Shown here: positions 105 to 31,697 of the stretch, piece after piece | Layout: every line of letters begins with the position of its first letter | Numbering within the stretch: position 1 is the first letter of the stretch | IMG/VR virus record: IMGVR_UViG_3300009320_000075 | Span: 1 to 32,661 of that record | DNA: 32,661 bases | Source: a virus | Strand: one strand, 5' to 3' | Notes under the pieces: generated by a model | What the model saw: the letters and a program-made list of their open reading frames with translations, nothing else | Told to the model about the DNA's origin: nothing | The model's database searches: none | Program-made: the position numbers and the translations under genes

Positions 105-135
105 TTGTATAGTTCAAGTATTTTGTTTATATTCG
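105..135 (+). promoter_or_regulatory. Bacteroidota-type promoter P1
   Basis: TTG at 105-107 and TATATTCG at 128-135 are separated by exactly 20 nt, matching the Bacteroidota -33 TTG / -7 TAnnTTTG layout. The dyad CTTG-N7-CAAG overlaps the -33 element. It lies about 25 nt upstream of the gene starting at 162, placing +1 near 141-145. Confidence 0.75.
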
Positions 136-161
136 TATTGTAATCATTAATATTGAGTAAA

Positions 162-608
162 ATGAACAAAATAAAAGTAACACCAGAAATGTTAAAGGAT
201 ATTGTCAAACAATTTCCATATTTTAACGAATATCTCTGGATTGGAGTAGAGCATGATGGATTATATTGGCATTCCGATGTGAATCCAATTGAAATTGTTG
301 GTGTAAAAGGAAACACAATTGAAATCAGGAGAATGAAGATTGGTGATAATAAAACAAAAATGGAATTTATTCCAGGCGGATTCTCAGCACACTGTCTAAA
401 TAATTCAAGTCAAGATTGGGAAATTGAATCAAATCCAGACTCTCCTGTAGAAAAAGCACGCATCATTAAAATATTTGAATATAACAGAAAACAATATGAT
501 CCAGATACCAAAGGATATAAAGATGTTAAAGAATATTCAATCATACGTAATGGATTAACATATAGGTTTTCTGATAAGCCGTGTTATTATTATGATTTTA
601 ATTTCTAA
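162..608 (+). CDS. Conserved phage hypothetical protein, 148 aa
   Basis: I prefer the ATG at 162 to a TTG nine bases upstream because it follows an A/T-rich leader behind promoter P1. The protein is soluble, with no signal peptide or membrane segment. A central stretch reads MEFIPGGFSAHCLNNSSQ, a pattern I associate with uncharacterised phage proteins. The C-terminus is aromatic-rich (CYYYDFNF). It is the first gene of a short run of small co-directional genes reaching to 1203. No function can be assigned. Confidence 0.85.
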   Translation: MNKIKVTPEMLKDIVKQFPYFNEYLWIGVEHDGLYWHSDVNPIEIVGVKGNTIEIRRMKIGDNKTKMEFIPGGFSAHCLNNSSQDWEIESNPDSPVEKARIIKIFEYNRKQYDPDTKGYKDVKEYSIIRNGLTYRFSDKPCYYYDFNF

Positions 609-619
609 ATAAAAGTATC

Positions 620-763
620 ATGTCAATCTCAAGTTTTGTAATTATTATTCTTATAGTAACATCAGTAATTGGTGTTATCTATGCCGTTGGTTATAAATTA
701 GCTGAATGGTTCGAAGAAGCTGAAAAAGAAGCTGAAAAATACCAAAAAATCAATATTTATTAG
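620..763 (+). CDS. Small single-pass membrane protein, 47 aa
   Basis: The start ATG lies 12 nt after the preceding stop. Residues 5-25 form one hydrophobic helix (FVIIILIVTSVIGVIYAVG), followed by a charged, Glu/Ala/Lys-rich tail containing two copies of EAEKE. The shape is of an inner-membrane anchored peptide with a cytoplasmic or periplasmic helical tail. The function is unknown; small phage membrane proteins like this can be superinfection or lysis accessory factors, but nothing here shows that. Confidence 0.65.
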   Translation: MSISSFVIIILIVTSVIGVIYAVGYKLAEWFEEAEKEAEKYQKINIY

Positions 764-769
764 AAAGCT

Positions 770-934
770 ATGAAAAAAAGCGAATATATTACGATGAGAA
801 ATGGAGTTCGTCGTAAAATTTTGGTTGATGAAGGAATTGATTTACTACCATCAAATAAGGTTCATAAATCAAAAAAAGACTATAAAAGAAAAAAAATCAA
901 CAAACGAGAATTATTCAAATACTCAGACGAATGA
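770..934 (+). CDS. Small basic protein, 54 aa
   Basis: The start ATG is 7 nt after the previous stop and the stop overlaps the next gene's ATG (931), as expected for a translationally coupled gene. The protein is very lysine/arginine-rich from residue 33 on (KSKKDYKRKKINKR), so nucleic acid binding is possible. No family is recognised. Confidence 0.6.
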   Translation: MKKSEYITMRNGVRRKILVDEGIDLLPSNKVHKSKKDYKRKKINKRELFKYSDE

Positions 935-1203
935 GAAAAGATATTTTATCATCAGACGAAAAGGCGGACAGAATCAAACAGATTAAGTCCTTCTTAAGAA
1001 AAAGTGAATCATACCCAAACTTCACAGAATTTAGTGAAGCTTGGGAATCACTAAGAACAGACTATACGTCGAATCCAATGTATATCGGATCAGATCTAAA
1101 TTTTGAAACGTATATGATCATGAGCGGTATAGAAACAAGGAAGTTTTATGTATTGAATAAACTATCATTGTTGCTGATGGAATCAAAAATCGAAAAAATG
1201 TGA
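931..1203 (+). CDS. Hypothetical protein, 90 aa
   Basis: The ATG overlaps the stop of the upstream gene (ATGA). The protein is polar and probably helical, without membrane segments, and I do not recognise it. The gene ends four bases before the conserved start of promoter P2, so it is probably the last gene of the P1 transcript. Confidence 0.7.
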   Translation: MRKDILSSDEKADRIKQIKSFLRKSESYPNFTEFSEAWESLRTDYTSNPMYIGSDLNFETYMIMSGIETRKFYVLNKLSLLLMESKIEKM

Positions 1204-1211
1204 TAAAAAGC

Positions 1212-1242
1212 TTGTTTCGTAACGAAAAAAGTATTATATTCG
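1212..1242 (+). promoter_or_regulatory. Bacteroidota-type promoter P2 with internal palindrome
   Basis: TTG 1212-1214 and TATATTCG 1235-1242 are spaced by 20 nt. The spacer starts with TTTCGTAACGAAA, a perfect inverted repeat around one central base that looks like an operator. About 100 nt of A/T-rich leader (1243-1343) separates it from the next ATG, and I see no ORF there. Confidence 0.75.
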
Positions 1243-1343
1243 TATCGTAACTAAATATTAAAATCTCACCAACAGACGGAATTGTAATATTATAATAAGT
1301 TCGATTTAAGAAAATTTCACAAAATAATATAAATAGTAACATT

Positions 1344-1571
1344 ATGAATGATCTTGAATTATTATACCTTATATCGAAAATAAGAATTATCGATATTAAA
1401 GATGAGAAAGAAACCATCAAAAAAAGATTGGGCATTCTCAATGCGAAAATTAGAAAAGAAAATAAACATCGAGAAAATATAGAACTTTGCATTCAAAAAT
1501 TAGGTTCAGACAGAATGTACGAATTCAAAGAAATCATTGAAAAGGCTGAACATAAATATAAAATAAAATGA
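1344..1571 (+). CDS. Hypothetical coiled-coil protein, 75 aa
   Basis: A short, highly charged protein with heptad-like spacing of Leu/Ile between residues 5 and 60, consistent with a coiled coil. It is the only gene between promoters P2 and P3. No family is recognised. Confidence 0.65.
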   Translation: MNDLELLYLISKIRIIDIKDEKETIKKRLGILNAKIRKENKHRENIELCIQKLGSDRMYEFKEIIEKAEHKYKIK

Positions 1572-1594
1572 TTTTACTTAACGCAATCTCAGAG

Positions 1595-1625
1595 AAGGTA
1601 TGTAACAGAAAAAGTATTACATTCG
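1595..1625 (+). promoter_or_regulatory. Weak Bacteroidota-type promoter P3
   Basis: TACATTCG at 1618-1625 is set in the same context as the other promoters (AAAAAGTATTACATTCGTATTGTAA), but the -33 position has AAG (1595-1597) instead of TTG. It precedes the repeat-protein gene at 1658. It may be weaker than its relatives or need an activator. Confidence 0.5.
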
Positions 1626-1657
1626 TATTGTAAGAAACATTAAATAAATCAAGTAAT

Positions 1658-2089
1658 ATGAAAATCAAAAAATTATTTAGAGAAGTAAACTATCCAATTT
1701 ATCTATATGATGAAAATGGAAATGAAATCTATTGTGAAGATTCCAATGGATTTTGGGAAAAATGTGAATATGACTCCAATGGAAATGAAATCTATTGTGA
1801 AAATTCCGATAAATATTGGGCAAAACGTGAATATGACTCCAATGGAAATGAAATCTATTGTGAAAATTCCGATAAATATTGGGCAAAACGTGAATATGAC
1901 TCCAATGGAAATGAAATCTATCGTGAAGATTCCAATGGATTTTGGGAAAAATGTGAATATGACTCCAATGGAAATGAAATCTATTTTGAAAATTCCGATG
2001 GAGATATTCAAGACATTCGTCCAAAAACCGAATTAACATACCATACTTTATCAAGTTCAATCTATGGACCAAATTGCAGAGAAATTTAA
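1658..2089 (+). CDS. Tandem-repeat protein of the YDxNGNEIYxE type, C-terminus probably frameshifted
   Basis: The protein has four complete 21-residue units and one partial, each of the form YDSNGNEIYCENSDKYWAKR plus one residue, from residue 17 to about 116. This pattern occurs in uncharacterised phage and bacterial proteins. The last 18 residues do not resemble the usual ending. A TM-D/E-QIAEKFNIP-type tail is instead encoded one frame away at 2064-2126, so the gene looks disrupted near its 3' end. Function unknown. Confidence 0.75.
   Translation: MKIKKLFREVNYPIYLYDENGNEIYCEDSNGFWEKCEYDSNGNEIYCENSDKYWAKREYDSNGNEIYCENSDKYWAKREYDSNGNEIYREDSNGFWEKCEYDSNGNEIYFENSDGDIQDIRPKTELTYHTLSSSIYGPNCREI
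1706..2005 (+). repeat. 63-bp tandem repeat, four full units plus a partial
   Basis: Units begin at 1706, 1769, 1832, 1895 and 1958. Units 2-4 are nearly identical. The 63-bp length is a multiple of three, which preserves the coding frame and also keeps several shadow frames open on both strands. Confidence 0.9.
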
Positions 2090-2126
2090 TATTCCAATTG
2101 ATGAACTCAAAATCAAAAAACAATAA
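2064..2126 (+). pseudogene. Displaced C-terminal tail of the repeat protein
   Basis: This 20-residue frame reads MDQIAEKFNIPIDELKIKKQ, resembling the usual ending of such repeat proteins. It is one frame away from the repeat ORF. Removing the 25 bases 2039-2063 would join ...KTELT directly to MDQIAEKF. It is either the tail of a gene broken by a 25-nt insertion or a separately translated micro-ORF, and I favour the former. Confidence 0.45.
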
Positions 2127-2128
2127 TC

Positions 2129-2353
2129 ATGGCAATTAAAGATGTAAAAGAATTAAGAGTCGAGCGAATTAAAATTGATTTAACTGGACCAGATGGAAAC
2201 GCATATGCTCTTATGGCATATGCTTCCAAGATTGCAAAACAACAGGGGTTGGATAAACAAAAGATCATGTTTGAAATGACATCAGGTAATTACGAAAATC
2301 TGATTAGTGTATTTGATCGGTATTTTGGTGAGTACGTTGATTTGTATAGATGA
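2129..2353 (+). CDS. Hypothetical protein, 74 aa
   Basis: A compact soluble protein whose middle reads GPDGNAYALMAYASKIAKQQ. It is followed after only two bases by the tRNA-like element. It resembles small conserved phage proteins I cannot name, and the function is unknown. Confidence 0.8.
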   Translation: MAIKDVKELRVERIKIDLTGPDGNAYALMAYASKIAKQQGLDKQKIMFEMTSGNYENLISVFDRYFGEYVDLYR

Positions 2354-2355
2354 CA

Positions 2356-2432
2356 TACTCCGGTATCCCCTCAAGCTTATATCTTGTGGAAAGGGTAATG
2401 GTTACATATTGGTTCAATTCCAATGCGGAGTA
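2356..2432 (+). tRNA. tRNA-like element, possible tRNA-Ile(UAU) lacking a D arm
   Basis: TACTCCG (2356-2362) pairs perfectly with CGGAGTA (2426-2432). A perfect 5-bp T stem, ATTGG/CCAAT (2408-2412/2420-2424), carries the canonical seven-base loop TTCAATT. The total length of about 76 nt is that of a tRNA. The middle is odd. The only good hairpin is CAAG-CTTATAT-CTTG (2372-2386), which reads as an anticodon loop with T33 and anticodon TAT, but no D arm fits before it and about 20 nt follow before the T arm. CCA is not encoded. It could be a degenerate tRNA or a tRNA mimic. Confidence 0.5.
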
Positions 2433-2456
2433 CTTTAAGTAAAAAAAATAAACATC

Positions 2457-2618
2457 ATGACAAAAAGAAAATCAAGTAACGCTAACTGTGTACAGCAAAT
2501 ACATATTAGTGAATTCGTTGGCAAAACCAAAAATCAAATAAAAAAAGAAATGTTTGATAAGAACATGGACGCAAGATACTGTGGCAAAAATCAAACATTC
2601 TATATGTACGGGAGATAA
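2457..2618 (+). CDS. Small hypothetical protein, 53 aa
   Basis: The frame runs from an ATG preceded by an A-rich leader to TAA, one base before the next ATG. The protein is polar, Asn/Lys-rich, with two cysteines. The spacing to the following gene supports it being real. Unrecognised. Confidence 0.55.
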   Translation: MTKRKSSNANCVQQIHISEFVGKTKNQIKKEMFDKNMDARYCGKNQTFYMYGR

Positions 2619-2619
2619 A

Positions 2620-2943
2620 ATGAAAAAAATTATATTAGTACTAGCATTTATGATTATAAGCACATTCTGCTTATCTCAAAAAATGTGCATTGTCGAAAAT
2701 CAATATGATGCTGATTATAAAGTATATATTACATCGCAGAAATATGATGCTGACCTTTGGGTCAATATAACAGCTGATAAATATGGTGTTAAAGATAATA
2801 TTAATTCTGGAGTATGGTATATAACTCGGAATAAATATGATTGTGATTATAAAATTTATTTTGTAAAGAATAAATATGATTCTGACCTAATTATTTATTA
2901 TGTAAATAGTAAATATCAAGCGGGCAGTAGAAGAAAAATCTAA
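2620..2943 (+). CDS. Exported 7(1) septoil knot-type (DUF6150-like) protein
   Basis: I start at ATG 2620 because the protein then begins with a clean signal peptide (MKKIILVLAFMIISTFCLSQ), likely cut near residue 19. The mature part is a series of repeated strands of the form KYDADLWVNIT and ends NSKYQAGSRRK. This repeat and ending match my recollection of the family annotated DUF6150 or 7(1) septoil knot, which is common in Bacteroidota and their phages. It would act in the periplasm or outside the cell. The role is unknown. Confidence 0.75.
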   Translation: MKKIILVLAFMIISTFCLSQKMCIVENQYDADYKVYITSQKYDADLWVNITADKYGVKDNINSGVWYITRNKYDCDYKIYFVKNKYDSDLIIYYVNSKYQAGSRRKI

Positions 2944-2955
2944 AATAAAGAAGTC

Positions 2956-3108
2956 ATGAAAATAAAAGTTTTACAGTACATTGCTGACCAAATTATCAAA
3001 AAAATGAAATCGATTCCAAAAGATAACATTGGTATGTTTGAAAAATGGATGTCAATTGGTTTTATGTTTAATGATTATTGTATAAATCGAAATATTTATT
3101 TGAAATAG
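2956..3108 (+). CDS. Small hypothetical protein, 50 aa
   Basis: The ATG follows the upstream stop by 12 nt and lies in the same short-spacing array. The protein is amphipathic, with basic N-terminal and aromatic C-terminal halves. No family is recognised. Confidence 0.55.
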   Translation: MKIKVLQYIADQIIKKMKSIPKDNIGMFEKWMSIGFMFNDYCINRNIYLK

Positions 3109-3115
3109 AAAAGTT

Positions 3116-3292
3116 ATGAAACAAAAACTAAATTGTAGAAAACTGACAAGAGGCAGAGTCAGTAATGTACAATACGTGCGTTCAGAACCCGAGTTTACTT
3201 TGGTTAGTGAATATAAAACTAAAAAAGGTCATACCAAAAACCGGTATAAAAAGAATCCAAATTCAGTTGTGATCAAACAAATTAAGTTATGA
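3116..3292 (+). CDS. Small basic hypothetical protein, 58 aa
   Basis: The protein is Lys/Arg-rich (TKKGHTKNRYKKN), suggesting nucleic acid or ribosome contact. Its 3' end (CAAACAAATTAAGTTATGAA) is nearly repeated at 3368-3385 (AAACAAATTAAGCTATGAA), just before the next gene, hinting at a local duplication or a shared translation-start context. Confidence 0.55.
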   Translation: MKQKLNCRKLTRGRVSNVQYVRSEPEFTLVSEYKTKKGHTKNRYKKNPNSVVIKQIKL

Positions 3293-3368
3293 AGTGGCAC
3301 ACGTCAAAAGATGTAAGAGATGTGATTGTTCGATTATGTTTATAAAAGCAATATACGAAGATAATTAA
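3289..3368 (+). pseudogene. Possible frameshifted zinc-knuckle micro-gene
   Basis: From the ATG at 3289 the frame gives only MKWHTSKDVRDVIVRLCL. In the adjacent frame, from GTG 3294 to TAA 3366-3368, lies VAHVKRCKRCDCSIMFIK..., with a CxxCxC cluster. Adding one A after ATGAA would fuse the start to this frame. At 26 residues this is suggestive only. Confidence 0.25.
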
Positions 3369-3380
3369 ACAAATTAAGCT

Positions 3381-3716
3381 ATGAAAAGAGAAATCAAGTT
3401 TAGAGCGTGGGATGATGGACGTAGAAAATACATCTATTCAGATAGACACCTATCATTGACAACGTTTTTTATTAATATTGATAGAAGAAACATTATGTTT
3501 AATTTAGAACAATTCACAGGACTTCACGATAAGAACAAAAAAGAGATTTATGAGGGGGATATTTTGGATTGTGGTCAAGACCCGAATGCAGAAGTGTTTT
3601 GGGATCAAGAACTTGGTCAATGGTCAATATCTACTTATCATGCCATACTATCTTTATATAATAATTTGCTCAATGCAAAGGTAAAGGAAATAAATATGAA
3701 AATCCAGAATTACTAA
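3381..3716 (+). CDS. YopX-family protein with frameshifted C-terminus
   Basis: The opening REIKFRAWDD, the middle LEQFTGLHDKNKKEIYEGDI and the following VFWD...W are diagnostic of the YopX family found in many phages. The in-frame ending (KEINMKIQNY) is not the family ending. One frame over, 3687-3724 encodes GNKYENPELLKK, the expected YopX tail. One missing A in the AAA at 3683-3685 explains the switch. The function of YopX proteins is not established. Confidence 0.85.
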   Translation: MKREIKFRAWDDGRRKYIYSDRHLSLTTFFINIDRRNIMFNLEQFTGLHDKNKKEIYEGDILDCGQDPNAEVFWDQELGQWSISTYHAILSLYNNLLNAKVKEINMKIQNY

Positions 3717-3725
3717 AAAAATAAA

Positions 3726-4760
3726 ATGAAATTTCCTTATTCAATAAAAGAATTAGAGAAACTATATCAAGATGGATATCTGGCAAAACAGAAGCATCCA
3801 AAATATGATATATGGATCTATAATTACTCTCAAAAATGTCAATTTGAGCAGTTATGGAATCCAATTACTTTAATGTGTCGTGGACTTGTACTAGATTCTG
3901 ATTATAATGTATTGGCAAGACCAATTCCAAAATTCTTTAATATCGAAGAACACAAACCAGAAGAAATTCCAAATGAATCATACGAAATTCTAGAGAAAAA
4001 AGATGGATCATATATTTCAGTTTTCTGGGTTAATGGCGAAATGATCGTTTCATCTCGCGGATCATTCACATCAGACCACGCTGTAAAAGCTCGTGAAATC
4101 ATTGAAAAGAAATATAAGAAGATAATTGACTCATATAAACTAGACGAACTAAATCTAGTGTTCGAACTTGTGGCAAAATTCAATAAGATAGTAGTAGACT
4201 ATGGTGATACTGAAGATTTATTCTTAATTACTGCGATTGCAAATGATACTAGAGATGAAGTACCATATGAAGTGCTACAGGATTTTGGGTTCCCAATAGT
4301 GAAAAGGTACAAAAATCTAAAAATTTCAGAACTAAAAGAACTAAATTCTGATAATGAAGAAGGATTTGTTGTTAAATTCAAATCTGGAATGAGAATTAAG
4401 ATAAAATTTGAAGATTATGTAAGATTGCATCGTATTGTAACAAACGTATCAACTAAAACTATCTGGGAACATCTGAAGGACGATGAACCATTAGATGATC
4501 TATTAGATAATGTACCGGATGAATTTTTCAAATGGGTGAAATTCACAATCAAAAAATTCGAAAATCAATACAAAGAAATAGAAGAATACTGTAAAGAAAA
4601 CTTCAAAATTCTTGAAACAAGAAAAGAATGTGCATTGTATTATCAAACAAAGAAATATCCTGCTGTCTTGTTTAAGATGATGGAAGATAAACCATATGAT
4701 CAAATCATCTGGAAGATAATTAAACCAAAATACGAGAAACCATTTAAAATTGAAGAATAA
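3726..4760 (+). CDS. rnlA: T4 RnlA-like RNA ligase
   Basis: This 344-residue protein joins 5'-phosphate and 3'-hydroxyl RNA ends using ATP. Motif I is KKDGS at residues 91-95, with K91 the predicted adenylated lysine. An upstream RGLVLD at 52-57, a following SSRGSF, the EGFVVKF motif IV and the RIKIKFEDYVRLH motif V complete the nucleotidyltransferase core. An all-helical C-terminal region follows, as in T4 RNA ligase 1. In T4 this enzyme with Pnkp repairs tRNA cut by host anticodon nucleases. The PNKP gene is 306 nt downstream, consistent with that role. Confidence 0.9.
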   Translation: MKFPYSIKELEKLYQDGYLAKQKHPKYDIWIYNYSQKCQFEQLWNPITLMCRGLVLDSDYNVLARPIPKFFNIEEHKPEEIPNESYEILEKKDGSYISVFWVNGEMIVSSRGSFTSDHAVKAREIIEKKYKKIIDSYKLDELNLVFELVAKFNKIVVDYGDTEDLFLITAIANDTRDEVPYEVLQDFGFPIVKRYKNLKISELKELNSDNEEGFVVKFKSGMRIKIKFEDYVRLHRIVTNVSTKTIWEHLKDDEPLDDLLDNVPDEFFKWVKFTIKKFENQYKEIEEYCKENFKILETRKECALYYQTKKYPAVLFKMMEDKPYDQIIWKIIKPKYEKPFKIEE

Positions 4761-5054
4761 TGAAATGTAAAAAATGCAATAAAGAAATCAATCTACATAT
4801 ACTCGGAGCACCAGAAGATATATGTTATGGTTGTTTAAGTGAAACTGAAAAAGATGAAATTGCTGAAATTGGTGTAAGAAATTATTCAAGCAATTACAGA
4901 AGAGCTTGATGAATGTCTTTCATCAACAAATGCAGAAGTACTAAATTGGGAAGATAAAATTATTGAACTTGATGAAGAAAATCAGACGATAACTATTAAA
5001 TTTGATTATAATATAGTTGAATCAGATGATTATATTGGCTTGGCTTTTTATTAA
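4760..5054 (+). pseudogene. Frameshifted zinc-ribbon protein
   Basis: The ATG overlaps the ligase stop (TAATG). The first frame gives MKCKKCNKEI... with CxxC at residues 3-6 and CYGC at 22-25, then stops at 4907-4909. A second frame, 4878-5054, continues as an acidic helical protein (EIIQAITEELDECLSS...) with no usable start. Deleting one A in GTAAGAAATT (4874-4883) joins them into one protein of about 97 residues. It is either a real pseudogene, a sequencing indel or a programmed shift. Confidence 0.55.
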
Positions 5055-5065
5055 AATTTAAGATT

Positions 5066-5917
5066 ATGAAAATAATAGTATTAAAAGGAATTCCAGGATC
5101 GGGCAAATCAACCTGGGCAAGAGAATACTGTGCAAAAAATAAGGATTTCATCCGAGTGAATCGTGATGATCTACGTAATATGCGTGGAAACTACTGGATT
5201 CCAAAACAGGAAAAGCTGATCACTCAAATGGTGGATTCATGCATTGATTTGGTACTATCCAATGGATATAATTTGATATTAGATGAGATGAATTTGAATC
5301 AGGACAGAAATAAAGCAAGAGAAGCTAAAATCAAAGAGCAATATCCAGATGCCAAATTTGAGTATAAATTTTTTGAAATTACGTTAGAAGAAGCAATCAA
5401 ACGTGATCTACAAAGACCAAATTCAATTGGTGAAAAAGTGATCACTAACACTTATAATAAATACTTTAAAAAAGAACCAATGAAACTAAGACAAGATGAC
5501 AGTCTCATCAAAGCAATAATCGTTGATGTCGATGGAACAATAGCACTGAAAGGTGATAGAAGTCCATATGATTGGAAAAGAGTGGGCGAGGATACACCAA
5601 ATACACCGGTTGTAAATCTAGTTAAATCTCTAAGACAAACTGGATATAGAATAATATTTGTATCTGGAAGAGATGGAGTGTGCAGACTCGAAACGAAACA
5701 GTGGATTGAAGAAGTATTTCCAAATCTAATATACACTCTTCATATGAGAAAAGAAGGTGATATGAGAAAAGATACAATCATTAAAAAAGAAATATTTGAT
5801 GATTATATAAAGGATAATTTTTATGTTGAGATGACTCTGGATGATAGAAATTGCATGGTCTCTGCTTGGCGTGAAATGGGACTAACTTGCCTGCAATGTG
5901 CTGAGGGGTCATTTTAA
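5066..5917 (+). CDS. pseT: T4 PseT-like polynucleotide 5'-kinase / 3'-phosphatase
   Basis: A 283-residue bifunctional RNA-end healing enzyme. The N-terminal kinase has the P-loop GIPGSGKS (residues 8-15) and NRDDLR (32-37), matching the T4 Pnkp catalytic Asp35 region. The C-terminal HAD phosphatase has VDVDGT with the DxDGT signature at 154-158, followed by FVSGRDG and DDR near the end. It prepares 5'-phosphate/3'-OH ends for the RNA ligase upstream. Both domains are intact and near the 301-residue T4 length. Confidence 0.92.
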   Translation: MKIIVLKGIPGSGKSTWAREYCAKNKDFIRVNRDDLRNMRGNYWIPKQEKLITQMVDSCIDLVLSNGYNLILDEMNLNQDRNKAREAKIKEQYPDAKFEYKFFEITLEEAIKRDLQRPNSIGEKVITNTYNKYFKKEPMKLRQDDSLIKAIIVDVDGTIALKGDRSPYDWKRVGEDTPNTPVVNLVKSLRQTGYRIIFVSGRDGVCRLETKQWIEEVFPNLIYTLHMRKEGDMRKDTIIKKEIFDDYIKDNFYVEMTLDDRNCMVSAWREMGLTCLQCAEGSF

Positions 5918-6201
5918 TTGAAAAAATATTATTTTTTATATAAAACGACAAACAAAATAAATGGAAGATATTATATTGGTATACATGGAACCAATGACAT
6001 GGATGATGGATATTTGGGGAGTGGTGTTTTTCTAGAAAAAGCTATCAAAAAGTATGGTAAAGATAATTTTAGTAGAATAATACTAAAGTATGTAAATAAC
6101 TATGAGGAATTAAATAAGTTAGAGAGAGAGAAATAGTTACTGAGGAATTCTGCAATAATAAATATACCAATCAGGCAAAAGAAGTCATACAATTGATTTG
6201 A
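5918..6201 (+). pseudogene. Broken GIY-YIG homing endonuclease
   Basis: The frame begins at TTG immediately after the PNKP stop. It reads FLYKTTNKINGRYYIGIHGT and then GYLGSG...KAIKKYGKDNF, the GIY-YIG nuclease core with the catalytic Tyr and Arg region. It stops at 6134-6136 within REK. One frame over, from the (AG)5 tract at 6121-6130, the family continues REREIVTEEFCNNKYTN before drifting off. One extra AG unit explains the break. The C-terminal DNA-binding part is missing and no ATG exists, so this is a decayed mobile endonuclease. Confidence 0.75.
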
Positions 6202-6281
6202 ATGATGCTAGATTATTAGATCCGGATTGGGAAGTAGCAAATCCAGACAGGTTGCAGAAATTAATAGATGAAATTAATTAA
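6162..6281 (+). pseudogene. Orphan 3' coding fragment
   Basis: A frame without a start codon reads SGKRSHTIDLNDARLLDPDW and continues EVANPDRLQKLIDEIN to TAA. The amino acid composition is protein-like and well formed. It overlaps the decaying end of the endonuclease in a different frame, as expected if a deletion joined the middle of the endonuclease to the 3' end of another gene. I do not recognise the parent family. Confidence 0.4.
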
Positions 6282-6298
6282 ATACGGGAGATATAGTT

Positions 6299-6482
6299 AT
6301 GTATAAAGATGATATTATTGAGTTATGTGAATTAAATGATTATATACAAAAAAGCAATAGAGAATTTTCATATTGATGAAAAACAGTTATTTGCATCATT
6401 GGTCGCTATTTGGGAAAATAGACGATTCATTGATCAAAAGGATTTAGATAATTTGAAATTTTTTGAAAATAAGGGACTATGA
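6299..6482 (+). pseudogene. Small gene split by a frameshift in an A6 run
   Basis: The ATG at 6299, preceded by a GGAG Shine-Dalgarno-like sequence, opens MYKDDIIELCELNDYIQK and then hits TGA at 6374. The +1 frame from 6336 continues KAIENFHIDEKQLFASLVAI...FENKGL to TGA 6480-6482, overlapping the next ATG. Removing one A from the A6 run at 6347-6355 fuses both into a natural 60-residue protein. The 6336 ATG could alternatively start a 48-residue product. Confidence 0.5.
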
Positions 6483-6748
6483 AAAGTATAATTGAAGAAA
6501 AACTGTTTCTATGTGAATGCCACGCTGAAGCATTGAATATCATGTATTATAAAGAGGATATATGTGAAGGATTTGATTTCACTATGTTTAAGTGTTATAA
6601 TCATAACATCGGACTTTGGGAAAGAATCAAAGCGGCGTTTAGGATCATAACGAAAGGTAGAACTCAGTTTGATGAAATCTGTTTTGGAAGAAAAACAGCT
6701 GAAGAAATAATTGAATTTATGAGTTCAAAATTAAAATCAAATCAATGA
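6479..6748 (+). CDS. Conserved phage hypothetical protein, 89 aa
   Basis: The ATG overlaps the upstream stop (ATGA) and the stop overlaps the next gene's ATG. Near the N-terminus is FLCECHAEAL, and the centre has GLWERIKAAFRIITKG, a layout I associate with small uncharacterised phage proteins (CxC, then LWxRIKxAF). No function is known. Confidence 0.75.
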   Translation: MKSIIEEKLFLCECHAEALNIMYYKEDICEGFDFTMFKCYNHNIGLWERIKAAFRIITKGRTQFDEICFGRKTAEEIIEFMSSKLKSNQ

Positions 6749-7752
6749 AATTAAAGAAGAAATATTGCGTGGGATGTCATTTTATGTTTTACGAGGCGGA
6801 GATGCTAGAAGAATATGTTGATGGACTTCTAAATATGCTAACCGACATCGAAAATCCAGAAAATATTACGTTTGATATATGTTGGAATACCTCCGAATAT
6901 TTTGAGAAAATGATGTTCTCAAAAGAGCATTATATAACTAGTAAGTATATTGAACAGATTGAGCGATTAGAACAAACTGGGTGTAACATAAAAGAGAATT
7001 TCAAAACGAATGATGATCCAGTTTATAACATCCCAAGTTATCGTAGAGATCTGAATAACAATTATGCAAATGAAGTAGATTATGTAATCTGGGGCGAATC
7101 TGATAGTTGCGCGCCAGCACAAACATTTCAAATTATAGAGCAAATAGACGAAAATGTTAGCACAAAGAAACATATAATAAGCTTTTCTTACCGCAAAATG
7201 TGGGGTGAGGACTGGAAAATAATGGAACATCCAAAATTTACAAATGAAATATTCCAAGATACAAAAGAATGGACACTGCACAATGAAGCAAGCGAGAAGT
7301 GTACAATGTCGATCCAGCGGATGAACGAAATCAATAATGAATATATAGATGATCTTGATGTACGAATATTTAAGGAACCAAAATTCGACGGTAGTTTTCC
7401 AGTAATTAGTTCCGAACTAATAAAAAGTGGGGTACAACTACCTCTTTCTCTACTATTATGTGGAGAGGATACCGCATTTGCACAAAATGCTAAAAGAATA
7501 ATGGGAGATAATTATGTTCAGTATCATGTGAGCAATATATTGAGAGTGCATAATCGACGCAATCCCAGAAAAAGAAATTATATAGTTGATGAAGATAATC
7601 CGTGTGGATTTTGTGGGATTGACGATAAAGGCAATTGGTGGAAAGTTATTGAAACAATGAGTAAAGAGAATTTAGCTAATATAGATGATCCAAATTTCAA
7701 ATTTCATACATACGATGACTATTTTAAGAAGATAGAAAATGAAGAAAAATGA
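6745..7752 (+). CDS. GT-A-like glycosyltransferase
   Basis: 335 residues. The N-terminal half begins KKYCVGCHFMFYEAEMLEEY and contains VDYVIWGESDSCAPAQ near residue 115, whose ESDS resembles the metal/nucleotide-sugar binding DxD of GT-A folds. Further on are LLLCGEDTAFAQNA and a Cys-rich PCGFCG near 290. It looks like phage-encoded GT2-like transferases; donor and acceptor are unknown. It overlaps both neighbours by a few bases and opens the sugar-metabolism block. Confidence 0.55.
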   Translation: MKLKKKYCVGCHFMFYEAEMLEEYVDGLLNMLTDIENPENITFDICWNTSEYFEKMMFSKEHYITSKYIEQIERLEQTGCNIKENFKTNDDPVYNIPSYRRDLNNNYANEVDYVIWGESDSCAPAQTFQIIEQIDENVSTKKHIISFSYRKMWGEDWKIMEHPKFTNEIFQDTKEWTLHNEASEKCTMSIQRMNEINNEYIDDLDVRIFKEPKFDGSFPVISSELIKSGVQLPLSLLLCGEDTAFAQNAKRIMGDNYVQYHVSNILRVHNRRNPRKRNYIVDEDNPCGFCGIDDKGNWWKVIETMSKENLANIDDPNFKFHTYDDYFKKIENEEK

Positions 7753-8224
7753 TAAAATTAATTTTATAGAGGATATAAATGATCCGAGAATAACTCCAGA
7801 GAGAAAGGTTGCAATAGAAAAACATATAGCATTACATAAAAAATGCAGACAAATTTCAAGAGAATTATTAAATAATAATGATAATTGTAAGAAAGAGCAT
7901 CATGATCTTGGAATACCATGGTACGAGGATCCAATTATAGAAAAATATTCTCCAAATCCTTATGAACTTAATAATGATGAGTGGAATGAAATTAAAAAAA
8001 TCCATGGATTATTAGTTCGTAGATTAAATGGATTTATAGAGGGAGGAGGAGAATATGTTTTGGGAGCAATGATTGAATGTTATATAAAAAATGTTGGTAA
8101 AGAACCAATCGTTGATTATTTTGAACAGTTTAGTTTACATGGAAAATATTATGTGAGAATAGTAATGGATAGTGTATTATATAGATTATTACAATATCCA
8201 TGTGGTGTATACCATGATGAATAA
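7739..8224 (+). CDS. Hypothetical protein, 161 aa
   Basis: The start overlaps the end of the preceding glycosyltransferase gene by 14 nt, implying coupled translation. The protein is mostly helical, with a Gly-rich turn GFIEGGGEYVLGAMI near residue 105, and has no signal or membrane segment. It could be an accessory of the glycosyltransferase, but no family is recognised. Confidence 0.75.
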   Translation: MKKNDKINFIEDINDPRITPERKVAIEKHIALHKKCRQISRELLNNNDNCKKEHHDLGIPWYEDPIIEKYSPNPYELNNDEWNEIKKIHGLLVRRLNGFIEGGGEYVLGAMIECYIKNVGKEPIVDYFEQFSLHGKYYVRIVMDSVLYRLLQYPCGVYHDE

Positions 8225-8242
8225 AAAGACAACGCAAAATAA

Positions 8243-8329
8243 TATACAAATCGACAAAAAGATAATCAGCGTCAAAAAGAAATTGAAGAACATTTTCCAG
8301 GATGTAAATTTATAAGAATAAAACAATAA
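8243..8329 (+). pseudogene. C-terminal remnant of a phage endonuclease-like protein
   Basis: A start-less frame ends NQRQKEIEEHFPGCKFIRIK, resembling the RQ-x-x-IE-x-x-x-GCKFIRI motif near the C-terminus of several phage and viral endonuclease or BRO-associated proteins. Nothing upstream encodes the rest, so a deletion is likely. A competing 32-residue frame at 8217-8315 looks spurious. Confidence 0.35.
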
Positions 8330-8344
8330 AATAATAAAAACATT

Positions 8345-8698
8345 ATGATAGCACAAACAATAGCAGAAATTGCTGATAGATACTCAATTTGCTTACTAAA
8401 GCAAGAAAGAACTGACTTAAATGTGGATGATGAACTAGCTTATTATAAAGAGGAACTAGACCAATATCCAGATGTATGGCTTGCAGTTACAATGTTAAAA
8501 ATTATAAATGGAAATATATGGTCTCTTGAGTCTGATCTACGATTAGGAAAAGAAGGCGAACTTGGTTTGGAAGAAATCGGAAAACGCGCCATTCAAATTC
8601 GTGATTATAATAAGGAACGAATCAACATTAAAAACCGAATCAATAAAAAACATAAGCAAGGATTTCAAGAAATGAAAAGAGACCATGCAAGCGAATAG
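8345..8698 (+). CDS. Conserved hypothetical protein, 117 aa
   Basis: The N-terminus, IAEIADRYSICLLKQERTDL, is followed by WSLESDLRLGKEGELGLEEIG and a basic tail. This matches a conserved small-protein type I have seen near phage sugar/LPS-like genes; its biochemical role is not known. The gene ends two bases before promoter P4. Confidence 0.8.
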   Translation: MIAQTIAEIADRYSICLLKQERTDLNVDDELAYYKEELDQYPDVWLAVTMLKIINGNIWSLESDLRLGKEGELGLEEIGKRAIQIRDYNKERINIKNRINKKHKQGFQEMKRDHASE

Positions 8699-8699
8699 C

Positions 8700-8730
8700 T
8701 TGTATTATTCATAGAATTTTTGTATATTCG
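8700..8730 (+). promoter_or_regulatory. Bacteroidota-type promoter P4
   Basis: TTG 8700-8702, N20, TATATTCG 8723-8730. It sits 21 nt before the ATG at 8752 and would drive the next part of the sugar block. The dyad seen in other copies is degenerate here (CTTG-N7-CATA). Confidence 0.7.
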
Positions 8731-8751
8731 TATAAAATAGGATACTAAATC

Positions 8752-9108
8752 ATGGAATTAACGGCATATTGCTTTGCAACAGAACAAAAGAGGGTTCCAT
8801 TTCATGGAAAACCAATACTTGAACAAACGAAGAATGGTGGATTTATAATAAGAGGAATTGATTCCGATGGCAATAAAATGTGTGCTATTATATCAAAAAT
8901 AAACGCTCACAAAGCTGTCAGATTGGGTTTGGTGGTTGATACAATCAACATCAAAGGAAAAGTGAAAAAGCATGAATTTATGGTCAATCACGGTGATAGC
9001 ATAAATGATGTTATAATTAAAATTCATAATATACTTTATGAGTATGGAATATCAATTGATCACGATGATGGAATATATATAGTGACTAAAAGCATAAATG
9101 AATTTTAA
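8752..9108 (+). CDS. Hypothetical protein, 118 aa
   Basis: The first gene after promoter P4. It begins MELTAYCFATEQKRVPFHG and ends DDGIYIVTKSINEF, probably a small alpha/beta protein without export signals. No family is recognised. Confidence 0.75.
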   Translation: MELTAYCFATEQKRVPFHGKPILEQTKNGGFIIRGIDSDGNKMCAIISKINAHKAVRLGLVVDTINIKGKVKKHEFMVNHGDSINDVIIKIHNILYEYGISIDHDDGIYIVTKSINEF

Positions 9109-9146
9109 TAAGAATGAAACATAGTAACAATCAACGAATAAATAGA

Positions 9147-11936: not shown

Positions 11937-11939
11937 GTT

Positions 11940-12188: not shown

Positions 12189-12189
12189 T

Positions 12190-14634: not shown

Positions 14635-14654
14635 TGTGAGAAAAGAAATAACCA

Positions 14655-18634: not shown

Positions 18635-18660
18635 TTAAAAAAATTTTTGATATTTATAGT

Positions 18661-18667: not shown

Positions 18668-18674
18668 AACAATA

Positions 18675-19930: not shown

Positions 19931-19946
19931 ATAATAAAAAAAGAAT

Positions 19947-20308: not shown

Positions 20309-20309
20309 C

Positions 20310-21548: not shown

Positions 21549-21775
21549 TGAAAAATGAGTTTTTAATCGAGCCGATCGTAATTAAGACGGTCGGCAACAA
21601 TGTGGAAGAGTTCGGAGACATCAAAACAAAAGAAAATAGCATAGTTGGTGTATATTTCTTCAAAAAAATAAGCAATACTATATTCGAATCAGGTTTGCAT
21701 TTCTTTAATGGCAAAATTATATCAGATGTAAAGCAGACTCCACAGCAATTAATAGAAGGCATTAACAATGGATGA
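21548..21775 (+). CDS. Hypothetical protein, 75 aa
   Basis: I use ATG 21548, whose A is the last base of the kinase stop (TAATG); an upstream in-frame GTG would overlap the kinase gene. It is a small beta-rich protein (SIVGVYFFKKISNTIFESG). The stop overlaps the next ATG by eight bases. Unrecognised. Confidence 0.7.
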   Translation: MKNEFLIEPIVIKTVGNNVEEFGDIKTKENSIVGVYFFKKISNTIFESGLHFFNGKIISDVKQTPQQLIEGINNG

Positions 21776-22412: not shown

Positions 22413-22416
22413 TAAA

Positions 22417-22869
22417 ATGGTTATGGAAAAAGAAATAGAAGACATGAAATATTGGGTTGACACCAATGGAAAACGCATTTGGCAAAACAAAGAAGATTAC
22501 CGGATAGGCGTAATAAGAAAAAATAAAGACTCAGATGACGTTACGTACACAAAAGATGGAAAACCAGTGGGCGCAGGATTTTTATTTGATTTTATGGAAC
22601 ACGAAGATGAATATTATGCTATACAACCAGCTCTAATAGATAATAAATTACCCAATAGTCAATTGAAGTTTATTGATGATAATTTACATAAAATTAAATT
22701 AGAGTTTTATGATCCTACAAGACTTTCAGAAATTGAAACTAATGTTGTTGAATATAATATTGATGATCCAATGCTTGAAATCATAACTAAATATGGTGAA
22801 ATAATATATTACAAATTATCAGATATAGAGCGGATTAAAATATATAAAAATAAGGAGAATCAATTATGA
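22417..22869 (+). CDS. Hypothetical protein, 150 aa
   Basis: Begins MVMEKEIEDMKYWVDTNGKR; a second ATG at 22423 is equally usable. The protein is acidic, alpha/beta, and ends KYGEIIYYKLSDIERIKIY, which resembles the SDGGVRIFNINEIRSIEI end of the next protein, suggesting they share a small beta domain. Stop and next start overlap (ATGA). Confidence 0.7.
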   Translation: MVMEKEIEDMKYWVDTNGKRIWQNKEDYRIGVIRKNKDSDDVTYTKDGKPVGAGFLFDFMEHEDEYYAIQPALIDNKLPNSQLKFIDDNLHKIKLEFYDPTRLSEIETNVVEYNIDDPMLEIITKYGEIIYYKLSDIERIKIYKNKENQL

Positions 22870-23117
22870 GCGATGGAATAACAGAAGCACACAAAGGAAT
22901 CAAACCTTACAAATCAAAGGAAAGACCAATGAAATCAGTTAAAATAACATTTAAAGACAATACAGAAAATATATTTAATGATGTAATCAGCCATCGTGTA
23001 ACTGATACTCATGTCAATATATCATATTCTGATGGCGGTGTTAGAATATTTAATATTAATGAAATTAGATCGATTGAGATTACTAATATACCACCAAAAC
23101 AAATACTTCATGGATAA
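22866..23117 (+). CDS. Hypothetical protein, 83 aa, with Shine-Dalgarno
   Basis: AAGGAG lies nine bases before the ATG, one of the few clear Shine-Dalgarnos here. The protein has beta strands KSVKITFKDNT and THVNISYSDGGVRIFNINEI. Its ending resembles that of the upstream protein, possibly an old duplication of a small beta domain. An internal ATG at 22929 would give a shorter form. Confidence 0.65.
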   Translation: MSDGITEAHKGIKPYKSKERPMKSVKITFKDNTENIFNDVISHRVTDTHVNISYSDGGVRIFNINEIRSIEITNIPPKQILHG

Positions 23118-23118: not shown

Positions 23119-23149
23119 TTGTAATATCAAAAAAAAAGTTGTATATTCG
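23119..23149 (+). promoter_or_regulatory. Bacteroidota-type promoter P5 abutting a start codon
   Basis: TTG 23119-23121, N20, TATATTCG 23142-23149. The only ATG of the next gene is at 23151, one base after the -7 element, so transcription would begin at or just past the start codon. Confidence 0.65.
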
Positions 23150-24562: not shown

Positions 24563-24799
24563 GTAATCACTATTATTATGCCCGTCGTAATGAAGAGCAT
24601 TGAGAGAATTGATGTAGAAATTGGCATGCCTGGCTCCTAATCGTCCATTGAACAAATTTTTTCCAGTACTAAACTTATTCGTCATACACACTATTAGGTG
24701 TTTTATAGTGCTATGCCTACGAAATCACTTCCCACCCAAAAGTGTAAGGATCCTTTACACTATAATCGGTTTTCACGACAATTCAGTACTAAATTCATT

Positions 24800-24858
24800 A
24801 GAATGCATTCATCTCGTAGGCATGGGAGACAGAATTCATTCATCTCGTAGGCATGGGA
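24800..24858. repeat. Two 28-bp direct repeats, 31-bp period
   Basis: AGAATNCATTCATCTCGTAG followed by GCATGGGA occurs at 24800-24827 and 24831-24858 with one mismatch (N). An inverted partial copy, ATGCCTACGA, lies at 24713-24722, so stem-loops of about 10 bp can form between them. Confidence 0.75.
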
Positions 24859-24891
24859 CTAAAGAAAGATGGATCTTTTCTTATAAAAAGC

Positions 24892-24922
24892 TTGTTTCGT
24901 AATAGAATTAGTGTTATATTCG
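24892..24922 (+). promoter_or_regulatory. Bacteroidota-type promoter P6
   Basis: TTG 24892-24894, N20, TATATTCG 24915-24922. The spacer begins TTTCGTAATAGAA, a decayed version of the palindrome in P2, so P2 and P6 form a subclass. It drives the 66-residue gene and probably the AAA+ gene. Confidence 0.75.
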
Positions 24923-26606: not shown

Positions 26607-26637
26607 TTGTATAGTTCAAGAAAAAGTATTATATTCG
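26607..26637 (+). promoter_or_regulatory. Bacteroidota-type promoter P7
   Basis: TTG 26607-26609, N20, TATATTCG 26630-26637, with the dyad CTTG-TATAGTT-CAAG identical to that in P1. The ATG of the VWA gene is 19 nt downstream. Confidence 0.8.
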
Positions 26638-30159: not shown

Positions 30160-30190
30160 TTGTATCTTTCAAGAATTAGTATTATATTCG
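30160..30190 (+). promoter_or_regulatory. Bacteroidota-type promoter P8
   Basis: TTG 30160-30162, N20, TATATTCG 30183-30190, with dyad CTTG-TATCTTT-CAAG. It lies inside a 59-bp sequence (30141-30199) repeated exactly at P9. Confidence 0.8.
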
Positions 30191-30209
30191 TACTATAAAA
30201 GAAAGCATC

Positions 30210-30308
30210 ATGAAAATCGCAATCCAAATCAATGCTAGAGATGTTAAACGAAAACTCAATGCATATCCAGAACTCAAGCAACTAAAAGATAAATACTTCT
30301 TAATATGA
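30210..30308 (+). CDS. Small basic protein, 32 aa
   Basis: MKIAIQINARDVKRKLNAYP and then ELKQLKDKYFLI. It begins right behind P8 and its stop overlaps the next ATG (ATGA). It may act as a leader gene for translation of the next protein. Confidence 0.5.
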   Translation: MKIAIQINARDVKRKLNAYPELKQLKDKYFLI

Positions 30309-30910
30309 AAAATATCTATATACAAATAGACACTAGATATCAGTATGACGAACTAATGTCGTATTGCAAACAGGCTGGAATATTTTGGGCAGATGGATCC
30401 ATCTGCATGAATCATAACGATAGGAAGACTACAAGTTATAATTACAGTAAAGCAGGAAACTTGATTAAACCATTAATTATTTGGATCTTAAGTAATAGAT
30501 TATCTTATTCTGACAAAGATTTTGCACTCCACAGAAATCGTAAAATAACTCCATTCTCTGAATTCAAATCAAAATACATGAAAACGATACCAATTGATGT
30601 AAAATTAAAGTATATTAAGATACTACATACGGGTTTATCAACCATATCTTTAGAAGATTTTTATAAAAATTATCCACATATTACTCCATGCACGTGTGCA
30701 GATTCAATCGAAAGTTTAACTGTAACAAAAAAGAATATACATATATTAAATACATTTGTCAAATTATTTTCACGCAGCGGTATTAAAAAAGAATACAATA
30801 GACTTCAATTAGCTGATGAACACTATACAAGACATTCAAAAAATATTCAATCTCGATTAAACAATGATGATAATTTACATGAAATTCGTAATATATATTT
30901 TAATAAATAA
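30305..30910 (+). CDS. Hypothetical protein, 201 aa
   Basis: Starts by ATGA overlap. The N-terminal part (IYIQIDTRYQYDELMSYCKQ, then AGIFWADG) resembles small phage proteins with a two-strand/one-helix fold. The rest is basic and helical with ITPCTCADS near residue 127. No function is recognised. Confidence 0.7.
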   Translation: MKNIYIQIDTRYQYDELMSYCKQAGIFWADGSICMNHNDRKTTSYNYSKAGNLIKPLIIWILSNRLSYSDKDFALHRNRKITPFSEFKSKYMKTIPIDVKLKYIKILHTGLSTISLEDFYKNYPHITPCTCADSIESLTVTKKNIHILNTFVKLFSRSGIKKEYNRLQLADEHYTRHSKNIQSRLNNDDNLHEIRNIYFNK

Positions 30911-30957
30911 AAACAATAATAACATACAAATTATTTCAAAAATAAGTGAAGAAAAGC

Positions 30958-30988
30958 TTGTATCTTTCAAGAATTAGTATTATATTCG
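30958..30988 (+). promoter_or_regulatory. Bacteroidota-type promoter P9
   Basis: TTG 30958-30960, N20, TATATTCG 30981-30988. Bases 30939-30997 are identical to 30141-30199 (P8). ATG 31007 follows 19 nt after the -7 element. Confidence 0.8.
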
Positions 30989-31006
30989 TACTATAAATTA
31001 TATATC

Positions 31007-31177
31007 ATGAAAAAAGACATTCAAACATTCATTGACGAAAATCGTGAAGTTCTAACTGACCACATTCGTTACTTCGTACCAAAAAATTACATCATCGACG
31101 ATGATGAAATAGAAGAATGGATCTTCAATGATGCATACTTATATGCATGGGCATTGGGAGAGGGAGTAGAAATATAA
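31007..31177 (+). CDS. Small acidic protein, 56 aa
   Basis: A strongly acidic small protein (YIIDDDDEIEEWIFNDAYLY). It has its own promoter. Small acidic early phage proteins are often inhibitors of host nucleases or other DNA-binding proteins; nothing more specific can be said. Confidence 0.65.
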   Translation: MKKDIQTFIDENREVLTDHIRYFVPKNYIIDDDEIEEWIFNDAYLYAWALGEGVEI

Positions 31178-31189
31178 AAAAATAGAATC

Positions 31190-31381
31190 ATGGCACGAAC
31201 ATATGAGCATATCAATAATACCACTACTTGCATTAATTGTGGGAAAAAGATAACTTATGATGAGTGGACCGGATACTGGATGCATGAGTTTAGTCGTTGG
31301 GAAAAAGATAATGGATATCATTGTAATGAAGATCAAAAAACCATTGCAAAACCAAGAATCGTAAATTTCAGAATAGTATGA
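31190..31381 (+). CDS. Small zinc-binding protein, 63 aa
   Basis: CINCGKKITYDEW at residues 14-26 gives a CxxC knuckle, and later H32, H44 and C45 (GYHCNED) could complete a zinc site. It overlaps the SWIM gene by 4 nt. Unrecognised otherwise. Confidence 0.65.
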   Translation: MARTYEHINNTTTCINCGKKITYDEWTGYWMHEFSRWEKDNGYHCNEDQKTIAKPRIVNFRIV

Positions 31382-31674
31382 CATTCACAAACTATAATCT
31401 TCCAGCAATAGCTAACCTTCCACGTGGAAAAGTAGTTGTATGCAATGAAGGATGGATTCCAGTTCCAGATAATTTCACATATAATGATGTCCGGAAATAC
31501 TGGAAGAAAGCAGTTCTAAAATCTCAAGCTAAAGACAAAATCATAACAGTAAAATCTAGTTCATCCAACCAAAAATATACTATTACTATTGAACGTGGTG
31601 GGTATCATTGTACATGTCCTGGATTTGGATTTCGTAGAAAATGCAAACATGTTGATCAAATTAAACTTGTATAA
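31378..31674 (+). CDS. SWIM zinc-finger protein, 98 aa
   Basis: The C-terminus YHCTCPGFGFRRKCKHVDQI has the SWIM pattern CxCx8CxH (C78, C80, C89, H91). SWIM fingers bind DNA or protein. The preceding 75 residues include KIITVKSSSSNQKYTITIER, a beta region. It is coupled to the upstream zinc protein. Promoter P10 starts inside its last codons. Confidence 0.75.
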   Translation: MTFTNYNLPAIANLPRGKVVVCNEGWIPVPDNFTYNDVRKYWKKAVLKSQAKDKIITVKSSSSNQKYTITIERGGYHCTCPGFGFRRKCKHVDQIKLV

Positions 31675-31697
31675 TTCACAAATTCTTTGTATATTAG
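31667..31697 (+). promoter_or_regulatory. Bacteroidota-type promoter P10
   Basis: TTG 31667-31669, N20, TATATTAG 31690-31697 (one change from the usual TATATTCG). The -33 element overlaps the end of the SWIM gene. A TTGT-N7-ACAA dyad is present. The ATG is 17 nt beyond. Confidence 0.6.

Follow-up and report, generated by a model that had tools for sequence, protein, structure and literature searches.

Introduction

In phage T4, the polymerase reads -35 and -10 boxes, and the middle class of promoters has a MotA box that replaces the -35. Another described arrangement is the promoter-stem-loop (PeSL), a mobile cassette in which a stem-loop is joined to a promoter. In Bacteroidota, promoters of sigma-A or sigma-ABfr have a -33 TTTG and a -7 TAnnTTTG; the transcript start is reported to lie 5 nt beyond the box in Flavobacterium psychrophilum (PMC9723704), and the spacer is described as variable in Bacteroides thetaiotaomicron (PMC7366714). 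Among the matches listed in our literature search, we recognized no paper on the promoters of T4-like Bacteroidota phages. The present study concerns ten promoter-like sites in the IMG/VR virus record IMGVR_UViG_3300009320_000075, the whole of which (32,661 bases) is hereafter called the window. A preliminary description of this DNA had interpreted the sites as promoters of the Bacteroidota -33/-7 form with an invariant 20-nt spacer and with TTCG in place of TTTG, a change that might favor reading by a dedicated sigma factor or by a polymerase altered by the phage.

We consider that the ten sites probably constitute one promoter family of a T4-like Bacteroidota phage, with the layout of host sigma-A promoters, early or middle use, and flanking sequences that compensate for an altered -7 box. 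Such a family would resemble the early and middle promoters of T4 in its many copies, its extended consensus, and its use for early and middle genes. Unlike T4 middle promoters, the window sites keep the -33 TTG in nine of ten copies, although no search aimed at the MotA box was made.

Results

Ten sites in one register

All ten sites exist, on the + strand and in one register. They are given below with nearby open reading frames (ORFs) and with leave-one-out scores from a position weight matrix (PWM); the scored copy was excluded from training, as were both members of the identical pair 30160/30958.

105..135, + strand: copy 1; TTGTATAGTTCAAGTATTTTGTTTATATTCG, start-site element GTATTGTAA; upstream of ORF 156; score 38.6
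1212..1242, + strand: copy 2; exact TATATTCG, start-site element GTATCGTAA; between ORF end 1203 and ORF 1344; score 36.2
1595..1625, + strand: copy 3; degenerate, AAG for TTG; TACATTCG, with GTATTGTAA retained; upstream of ORF 1658; score 14.0, the lowest
8700..8730, + strand: copy 4; TATATTCG, without GTAA (TTTTTGTATATTCGTATAAAA); sole copy ahead of the long sugar operon; ORF 8752; score 30.0
23119..23149, + strand: copy 5; TATATTCG, without GTAA; score 22.6
24892..24922, + strand: copy 6; TATATTCG and GTACTGTAA; upstream of ORF 24945 and cobS-like ORF 25209; overlaps the end of the doubtful TTG-start ORF 24621-24902; score 40.5
26607..26637, + strand: copy 7; TATATTCG and GTATTGAAA; upstream of cobT-like ORF 26657; score 47.7
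30160..30190, + strand: copy 8; TATATTCG and GTACTATAA; TTG to box identical to copy 9; score 42.1 (pair excluded)
30958..30988, + strand: copy 9; TATATTCG and GTACTATAA; upstream of ORF 31007; score 42.1
31667..31697, + strand: copy 10; TATATTAG, A for C; no GTAA; covers the last 8 nt of ORF 31378-31674; upstream of ORF 31715; score 26.3

A scan of the whole window found TTG-N20-TATATTCG eight times on the + strand (105, 1212, 8700, 23119, 24892, 26607, 30160, and 30958) and never on the - strand, while in 200 order-3 Markov simulations of the same size the exact pattern occurred on average 0.065 times and at most twice per window, counting both strands. TTG lies exactly 20 nt upstream of eight of the 11 occurrences of TATATTCG on both strands of the window (binomial P ~1.6e-11). 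The leave-one-out scores extend from 14.0 to 47.7, and the best place outside the ten sites, on either strand, scored 7.7. The bare two-box pattern with up to two mismatches barely exceeds chance (34 found against a shuffle mean of 23.5, with 4 of 100 shuffles reaching 34), which places the signal in the exact box and its extended context. The statement that the spacer is exactly 20 nt every time holds for the register in all ten copies and for TTG itself in nine. Of the two variant sites, 31667 differs in the box; 1595 has no -33 at all, where the preliminary description called it weak, but retains the remainder of the pattern.

The conserved stretch exceeds what was first noted: it covers approximately 40 nt, beginning some 10 nt before TTG and ending some 8 nt beyond the -7 box, with the extended consensus AAAAAGCTTGTAT..TTCAAGaattAGTaTTATATTCGTAyTGTAA. 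A TAnATT box is common to all ten copies; the C of its TTCG ending is kept in nine, one copy ends in AG, and none fits TAnnTTTG. Just past the box, seven copies have a candidate start-site element, GTAyTGTAA or one base off, the GTAA of which is exact in four (105, 1212, 1595, and 24892), one base off in three (26607, 30160, and 30958), and absent from the remaining three (8700, 23119, and 31667). Upstream halves are common to 105 and 26607 and to 1212 and 24892. Eight of the ten sites are situated within gene gaps, the others being the overlapping sites 24892 and 31667. When the +1 is set 5 nt beyond the box and leaders are measured to the next ORF of a hand-made gene list, the predicted leader is 13-18 nt in six copies, 28 nt for 1595, 97 nt for 1212, and 110 nt at 30160, where a nearer ATG opens no listed ORF of at least 50 aa.

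Layout of host promoters

As host sets, we used 400 kb from one Prevotella record together with Flavobacteriales plasmids totalling 200 kb. Noncoding TTTG boxes in Prevotella number 32 at N20, 16 at N19, and 4 at N21, and those in the plasmids, before deduplication, 17, 1, and 3, respectively, with 12 at N20 after deduplication. TTTG is the single strong box ending at the right spacing in both sets; other endings are slightly raised at N20 in Prevotella (TTCT 8, TTGT 7, TTTC 5, TTGA 4, and TTGC 4). A spacer of 20 nt is thus normal in these sets, and TTCG is no host form in them. The Bacteroidota -33/-7 form of the sites is borne out by the same layout in host DNA and in two related phages described below, the cultured Flavobacterium phage vB_FspM_immuto (Immutovirus immuto; hereafter immuto) and the uncultured G009, whereas the invariant spacer was rejected as a novelty, N20 being the most frequent spacing in both host sets as well. 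The claim that TTCG replaces TTTG was upheld: the host sets have TTTG, the relatives change the same two bases, and the altered box there accompanies a separate promoter class.

The window sites accordingly resemble sigma-A promoters in the -33 TTG (nine of ten copies), the spacer of approximately 20 nt, TAnnTT, and a position just upstream of genes, and differ from them in a box that ends in CG rather than TG in nine of ten copies. They also have long flanking conservation and the start-site element, neither of which was found in the host sets.

A sigma-70 consensus scan of window positions 1-10000 gave 66 sites against 65.1 expected. When 84,980 species genomes were searched with the strict pattern, which fits only five of the ten window copies, one match was obtained, in a Planctomycete metagenome-assembled genome (MAG); based on the sequence inspected by eye only, this match was taken as chance and rejected as a host lead. 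No phage sigma factor (Sigma70_r2, PF04542) was found above the cut-off in 15 phage records including the window and the relative G001, which may be fragments; sub-threshold matches occurred in two of the 15 (E 0.008 and 0.016). A gp55-like factor need not match the Sigma70_r2 model.

Relatives carrying the family

A 17.8-kb record, G003, encodes an RNA ligase identical to that of the window and has four of the window's sites. G001 (75 kb) encodes a T4-type major head protein and tail sheath. A PWM built from the window only located three + strand sites in G001 at 28-39 bits and one at 20.3, the maximum of 100 simulations being 18.5, and two weaker sites (17.6 and 14.3) below that maximum; box endings in G001 include TTTG at 35917 and TTTA at 53959. 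Two of the 39 window genes are shared with G001, one of them as a 14-residue match, and G001 may be a different portion of a similar genome. A G001 site recurs in contig L014, which has the same IMG sample number as G003. The named phages nearest to the G001 major head protein are the Microcystis phage Mel-JY01 (61%), immuto (52%), and, more distantly, Rhodothermus phage RM378 (43% over 71%). The window shares 12 of its 39 genes with G009 (169 kb) and eight with immuto (150 of 160 kb searched).

In 58 loci of CobS relatives (46-57% identity, near-identical loci included), TATATTTG has TTG 64 times at N20 and never at N19 or N21, and TTAG boxes peak likewise at N20. In G009, TTG-N20-TATATTNG occurs 24 times on the + strand and not on the - strand. 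A pattern search of viral contigs matched 66 stretches, in 12 of which a site exceeded the PWM threshold of 15: five of the window lineage (L014, L022, L055, L065, and L071), six with a recurrent single site, and the unassigned L013. The recurrent single site, TTGTAAATAnnAAAAAAATATAnTATATTCGTAAACAATT, is another TTCG box at N20, and was found in L028, L034, L038, L045, L052, and L063. Six relatives of the RNA ligase, besides the near-identical record, have few sites and no TTCG at N20, and an N20 peak was not found in the first 50 kb of Cellulophaga phage phiST. At G009 65383 and G001 35917, an ATG is located at or a few nt from the predicted start, and leaderless mRNAs are likely.

The box ending differs among these phages. 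At N20 in noncoding DNA, TTCG is found seven times in the window and four times in G001, and G009 has TTTG 17, TTAG 12, TTTA 11, and TTAA 7 times. The endings in immuto are TTTA (39) and TTAA (9), with no TTTG peak. On the + strand of immuto, TANNTTTAG[AG]TA has TTG at exactly N20 in 26 of 26 cases; most of its boxes (TANNTTTA) have a common start-site sequence like GGTATCAATAATTAAAAC, and the sites are mostly upstream of small ORFs at 60-77 kb. The immuto sugar operon (49-60 kb) contains no intergenic copy and one match inside a gene. The putative promoters of immuto are like the window sites in having TTG at N20, an altered box, a conserved start-site sequence, and a position before small ORFs, and differ in the box TTTA and the start-site sequence GGTATCAATAATTAAAAC. 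As part of the explanation that we favor, the final dinucleotide of the -7 box, which is CG in the window and TG in hosts, may drift as a lineage signature.

Mel-JY01 (PP395634) has TTTG boxes 22 times at N20, never at N19, and once at N21. This phage is recorded on a cyanobacterium, yet has Bacteroidota-type promoters, and its head protein is 61% identical to that of G001; the bacterium that it actually infects may be a member of the Bacteroidota accompanying the cyanobacterium in culture.

A separate promoter-like class in the relatives

We defined the M class as sites with an altered box ending and a GTAA start-site element, with tandem TTAACA-N5-TTAACA upstream. The TTAACA boxes are 11 nt apart and lie just upstream of the -33, for example at G009 114869; they are likely the site of an activator or of the alpha subunit. 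We counted 121 tandems in 992 kb of relatives, 13 in G009, and none in 600 kb of host DNA or in the window. All 15 G009 sites with both GTAA past the box and upstream TAACA boxes end in TTAG (8) or TTTA (7), and none in TTTG. The CobS loci contain 578 distinct TTG-N20-TANNTT sites, many of which are chance or coding occurrences. Among these, GTAA and tandem TAACA are combined at 33 TTAG, 19 TTTA, and no TTTG sites, while 72 of the 80 TTTG sites have neither element, five have GTAA without boxes, two have one TAACA, and one has the tandem. The split is not clean: the tandem occurs without GTAA at 10 TTAG and 8 TTTA sites, and neither element is present at 29 TTAG and 81 TTTA sites.

A site with GTAA or the tandem precedes cobS in 27 of the 51 loci with sufficient upstream sequence, and none was found by the same rule in the other 24. 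The 31 M-type sites upstream of cobS end in AG (23), TA (8), and TG (0), the loci not all being independent. In the window, 24892 (TTCG with CTGTAA) precedes cobS and 26607 precedes cobT; in G009, the M-type site 120635 is immediately upstream of cobT. Based on this position and the start-site element, the GTAyTGTAA copies of the window look like M-class members that have yet another box ending and lack the TTAACA boxes, and 8700, 23119, and 31667 look like a plain class. Over all ten copies, the window resembles the M class of uncultured T4-like relatives in part: its box is altered (10 of 10 copies), it has sites before cobS and cobT, and its GTAA element is exact in four copies, near in three, and absent in three. 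The relatives differ in having TTAG or TTTA instead of TTCG, and in the tandem boxes, of which the window has none.

Timing and a late-type motif

The 80 capsid-gene loci that we scanned (1.09 Mb) show no peak at N20, TATATTTG occurring 7 times at N20, 7 at N19, 2 at N21, and 10 at N22, which indicates no concentration of the family in late regions. A different motif is found in the window:

18650..18658, + strand: late-type motif ATATTTATA, not a family member; upstream of the M15/VanY-type peptidase ORF 18675; third promoter-like class of the phage group

Without a -33, this motif is listed on the + strand at 25 places of the G009 sequence and at 16 of the immuto sequence, with at most one on the - strand in each. 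It is often just upstream of genes, including the tail sheath and tail tube genes of immuto but not its major capsid gene, and is present in none of the ten family sites. Taken together with the capsid-gene loci, this suggests that the TTCG family is early or middle and that ATATTTATA is late.

Hairpins over the -33 region

A hairpin in the window promoters (a TTG-N7-CAA dyad), seen by eye, was not borne out by arm-swap folding of the segment that starts 12 nt ahead of TTG and extends to the box (z -0.3, n=10). Sets likewise without a hairpin were G001 (z -1.5), Mel-JY01 (-0.8), the TATATTTG CobS sites (0.8), Prevotella (-1.5), and the Flavobacteriales plasmids (0.0). A hairpin was upheld in immuto (z -6.4, n=26) and in the M class of the CobS loci (z -10.6, n=66, related loci), with weaker signals in G009 (TTTG -3.3, TTAG -3.6, and TTTA -3.0). 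The -33 region has a folding energy below -3 kcal/mol in half of the 26 immuto sites, and in about half of the immuto and M-class promoters taken together, against approximately a third in the host sets. Some immuto and M-class promoters have a terminator-like hairpin with a T run over the -33 box and spacer, such as AGGTTTGG-TTATT-CCAAACCTTTTTTT in G009; since this hairpin spans the -33, a single element could terminate the RNA from upstream and initiate the following one.

The window and its genes

The window is AT-rich (GC 0.31), and a greedy gene call places 55 of 60 ORFs on the + strand. Phage-type genes encode an Rnl1-type RNA ligase (3726), PNKP (5066), an M15 peptidase (18675), a deaminase (23366), a CobS-like AAA protein (25209), and a CobT-like protein (26657). 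The sugar operon extends from 8752 to 23117, and the scarcity of sites over it was confirmed, with a single site at 8700 and the next at 23119. Sugar-nucleotide and glycosyltransferase-like genes lie at 9114-18634, some of which are related to genes of G009 (80-88 kb) and immuto (56-60 kb). A period-63 tandem repeat (4.6 copies) at 1715-2002, within ORF 1658-2089, corresponds to a repeated 21-residue protein unit, and a tRNA-Ile (anticodon TAT) of 95 nt was called at 2339-2433. Megablast with window 1-25000 as the query gave no cultured DNA relative, and the typed 66-nt promoter consensus gave no match as a query. The relatives and the promoter form suggest that the phage probably infects Bacteroidota.

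Discussion

The -33 TTG, the 20-nt register, and the TAnATT box suggest that a sigma-A polymerase could position itself on the window sites. In the explanation that we favor, host RNA polymerase with the primary sigma-A would bind the TTG at -33 and, at the usual spacing, the TATATT portion of the box, and the sigma-A contact lost at the off-consensus ending would be offset by the flanks, namely, A-rich upstream DNA and the start-site element in the window and, probably, the tandem TTAACA boxes in relatives. The family would then give rise to short transcripts, early or middle in timing, that cover small ORFs and the cobS/cobT pair. The late programme would follow and, in this group of phages, would use ATATTTATA with no -33.

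Several observations weigh against this explanation. Sigma-A promoters are defined by a -7 TAnnTTTG, unlike the box of the window (PMC9723704, PMC7366714), and no TTCG peak is present at N20 in the Prevotella or Flavobacteriales sets. The register is not absolute, as the TTG is at N19 in the G001 TTCG copy 8853, and 1595 lacks the -33. At 23119, an ATG (23151) sits just before the predicted +1, such that either a leaderless RNA or the use of a different start would be expected. The copies at 30160 and 30958 look like recent duplications, and part of the conservation may reflect descent. TTG-N20-TATATTNG is absent in two of 15 CobS-relative records, and several others have few, on both strands. 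The early or middle assignment is based on gene position, and the strand bias of ATATTTATA is weak or absent in some phages (16 + and 12 - in G001, and 22 + and 8 - in Mel-JY01, in raw tallies in which a motif with G or C before it is entered two times).

An altered ending may also mark a factor-dependent class in the style of T4 middle promoters, in which a phage or virion protein changes the reading by sigma-A so that TTAG, TTTA, and TTCG boxes with a start-site element fire when TTTG boxes do not. The M-class counts in G009, in the CobS loci, and before cobS, none of which includes TTTG, are in line with this possibility, as are the 72 TTTG sites with neither element, the tandem boxes confined to relatives in the comparison with host DNA, and the lack of a TTTG peak in immuto. 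We nevertheless regard it as rather unlikely for the window, which has no tandem TTAACA and has TTCG also without the start-site element (8700 and 23119); moreover, the split in the CobS loci is unclean, none of the 15 records has a Sigma70_r2 match above the cut-off, and if the immuto family is transcribed first, no phage-made product would yet be available save an injected protein. A broader proposal extends to the group, and we advance it tentatively: T4-like Bacteroidota phages may hold a second, purposely off-consensus promoter class, in which the -33 and N20 are intact, the -7 is never TTTG in the counted sites, and a start-site element is present, read by a sigma-A that a phage or virion factor has retuned, with lineages rewriting the last two bases.

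If the sigma-A of the host itself preferred TTCG, the box would simply be the local host consensus, as the C kept in nine copies and the four noncoding TTCG boxes at N20 in G001 would allow. This is improbable because Prevotella and Flavobacteriales show TTTG without a TTCG peak, and because other endings coexist in the same genomes (TTAG at window 31667, and TTTG at 35917 and TTTA at 53959 in G001); the single match among the species genomes also speaks against it, but bears on the extended motif and not on host TTCG boxes. Even less probable is the view that the sites are not promoters but repeated operators or recombination cassettes, such as PeSL, spread among small ORFs. The identical stretch from TTG to box at 30160 and 30958, the common upstream halves of the two other pairs, and the terminator-like hairpins over the -33 in immuto and M-class relatives fit such a cassette, whereas the window copies, unlike PeSL, have no stem-loop and fold no better than arm-swapped sequences, and the TTG-box register, which is that of host sigma-A, is held while the spacer drifts. 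Chance recurrence in AT-rich DNA would fit the bare two-mismatch pattern, which exceeds shuffles only slightly; for the family as a whole, it was rejected as having a negligible probability in view of the Markov simulations, the spacing P value, the separation of leave-one-out scores (at least 14.0 against at most 7.7), and the occurrence of the same family in other records.

The comparison distinguishes three promoter-like classes among a group of phages of which one, immuto, has been cultured, and poses the question of why the host -33 and spacing are kept, yet two -7 bases that are conserved in the host sets are altered. If the proposed second class exists, its off-consensus box would separate phage genes from all TTTG host promoters. 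The sites are candidate promoter parts for Bacteroidota genetics, and TTG-N20-TATATT with its ending may serve as a signature for assigning hosts to uncultured phages. The variation of the box alteration among related viruses hints at how phages take over gene reading.

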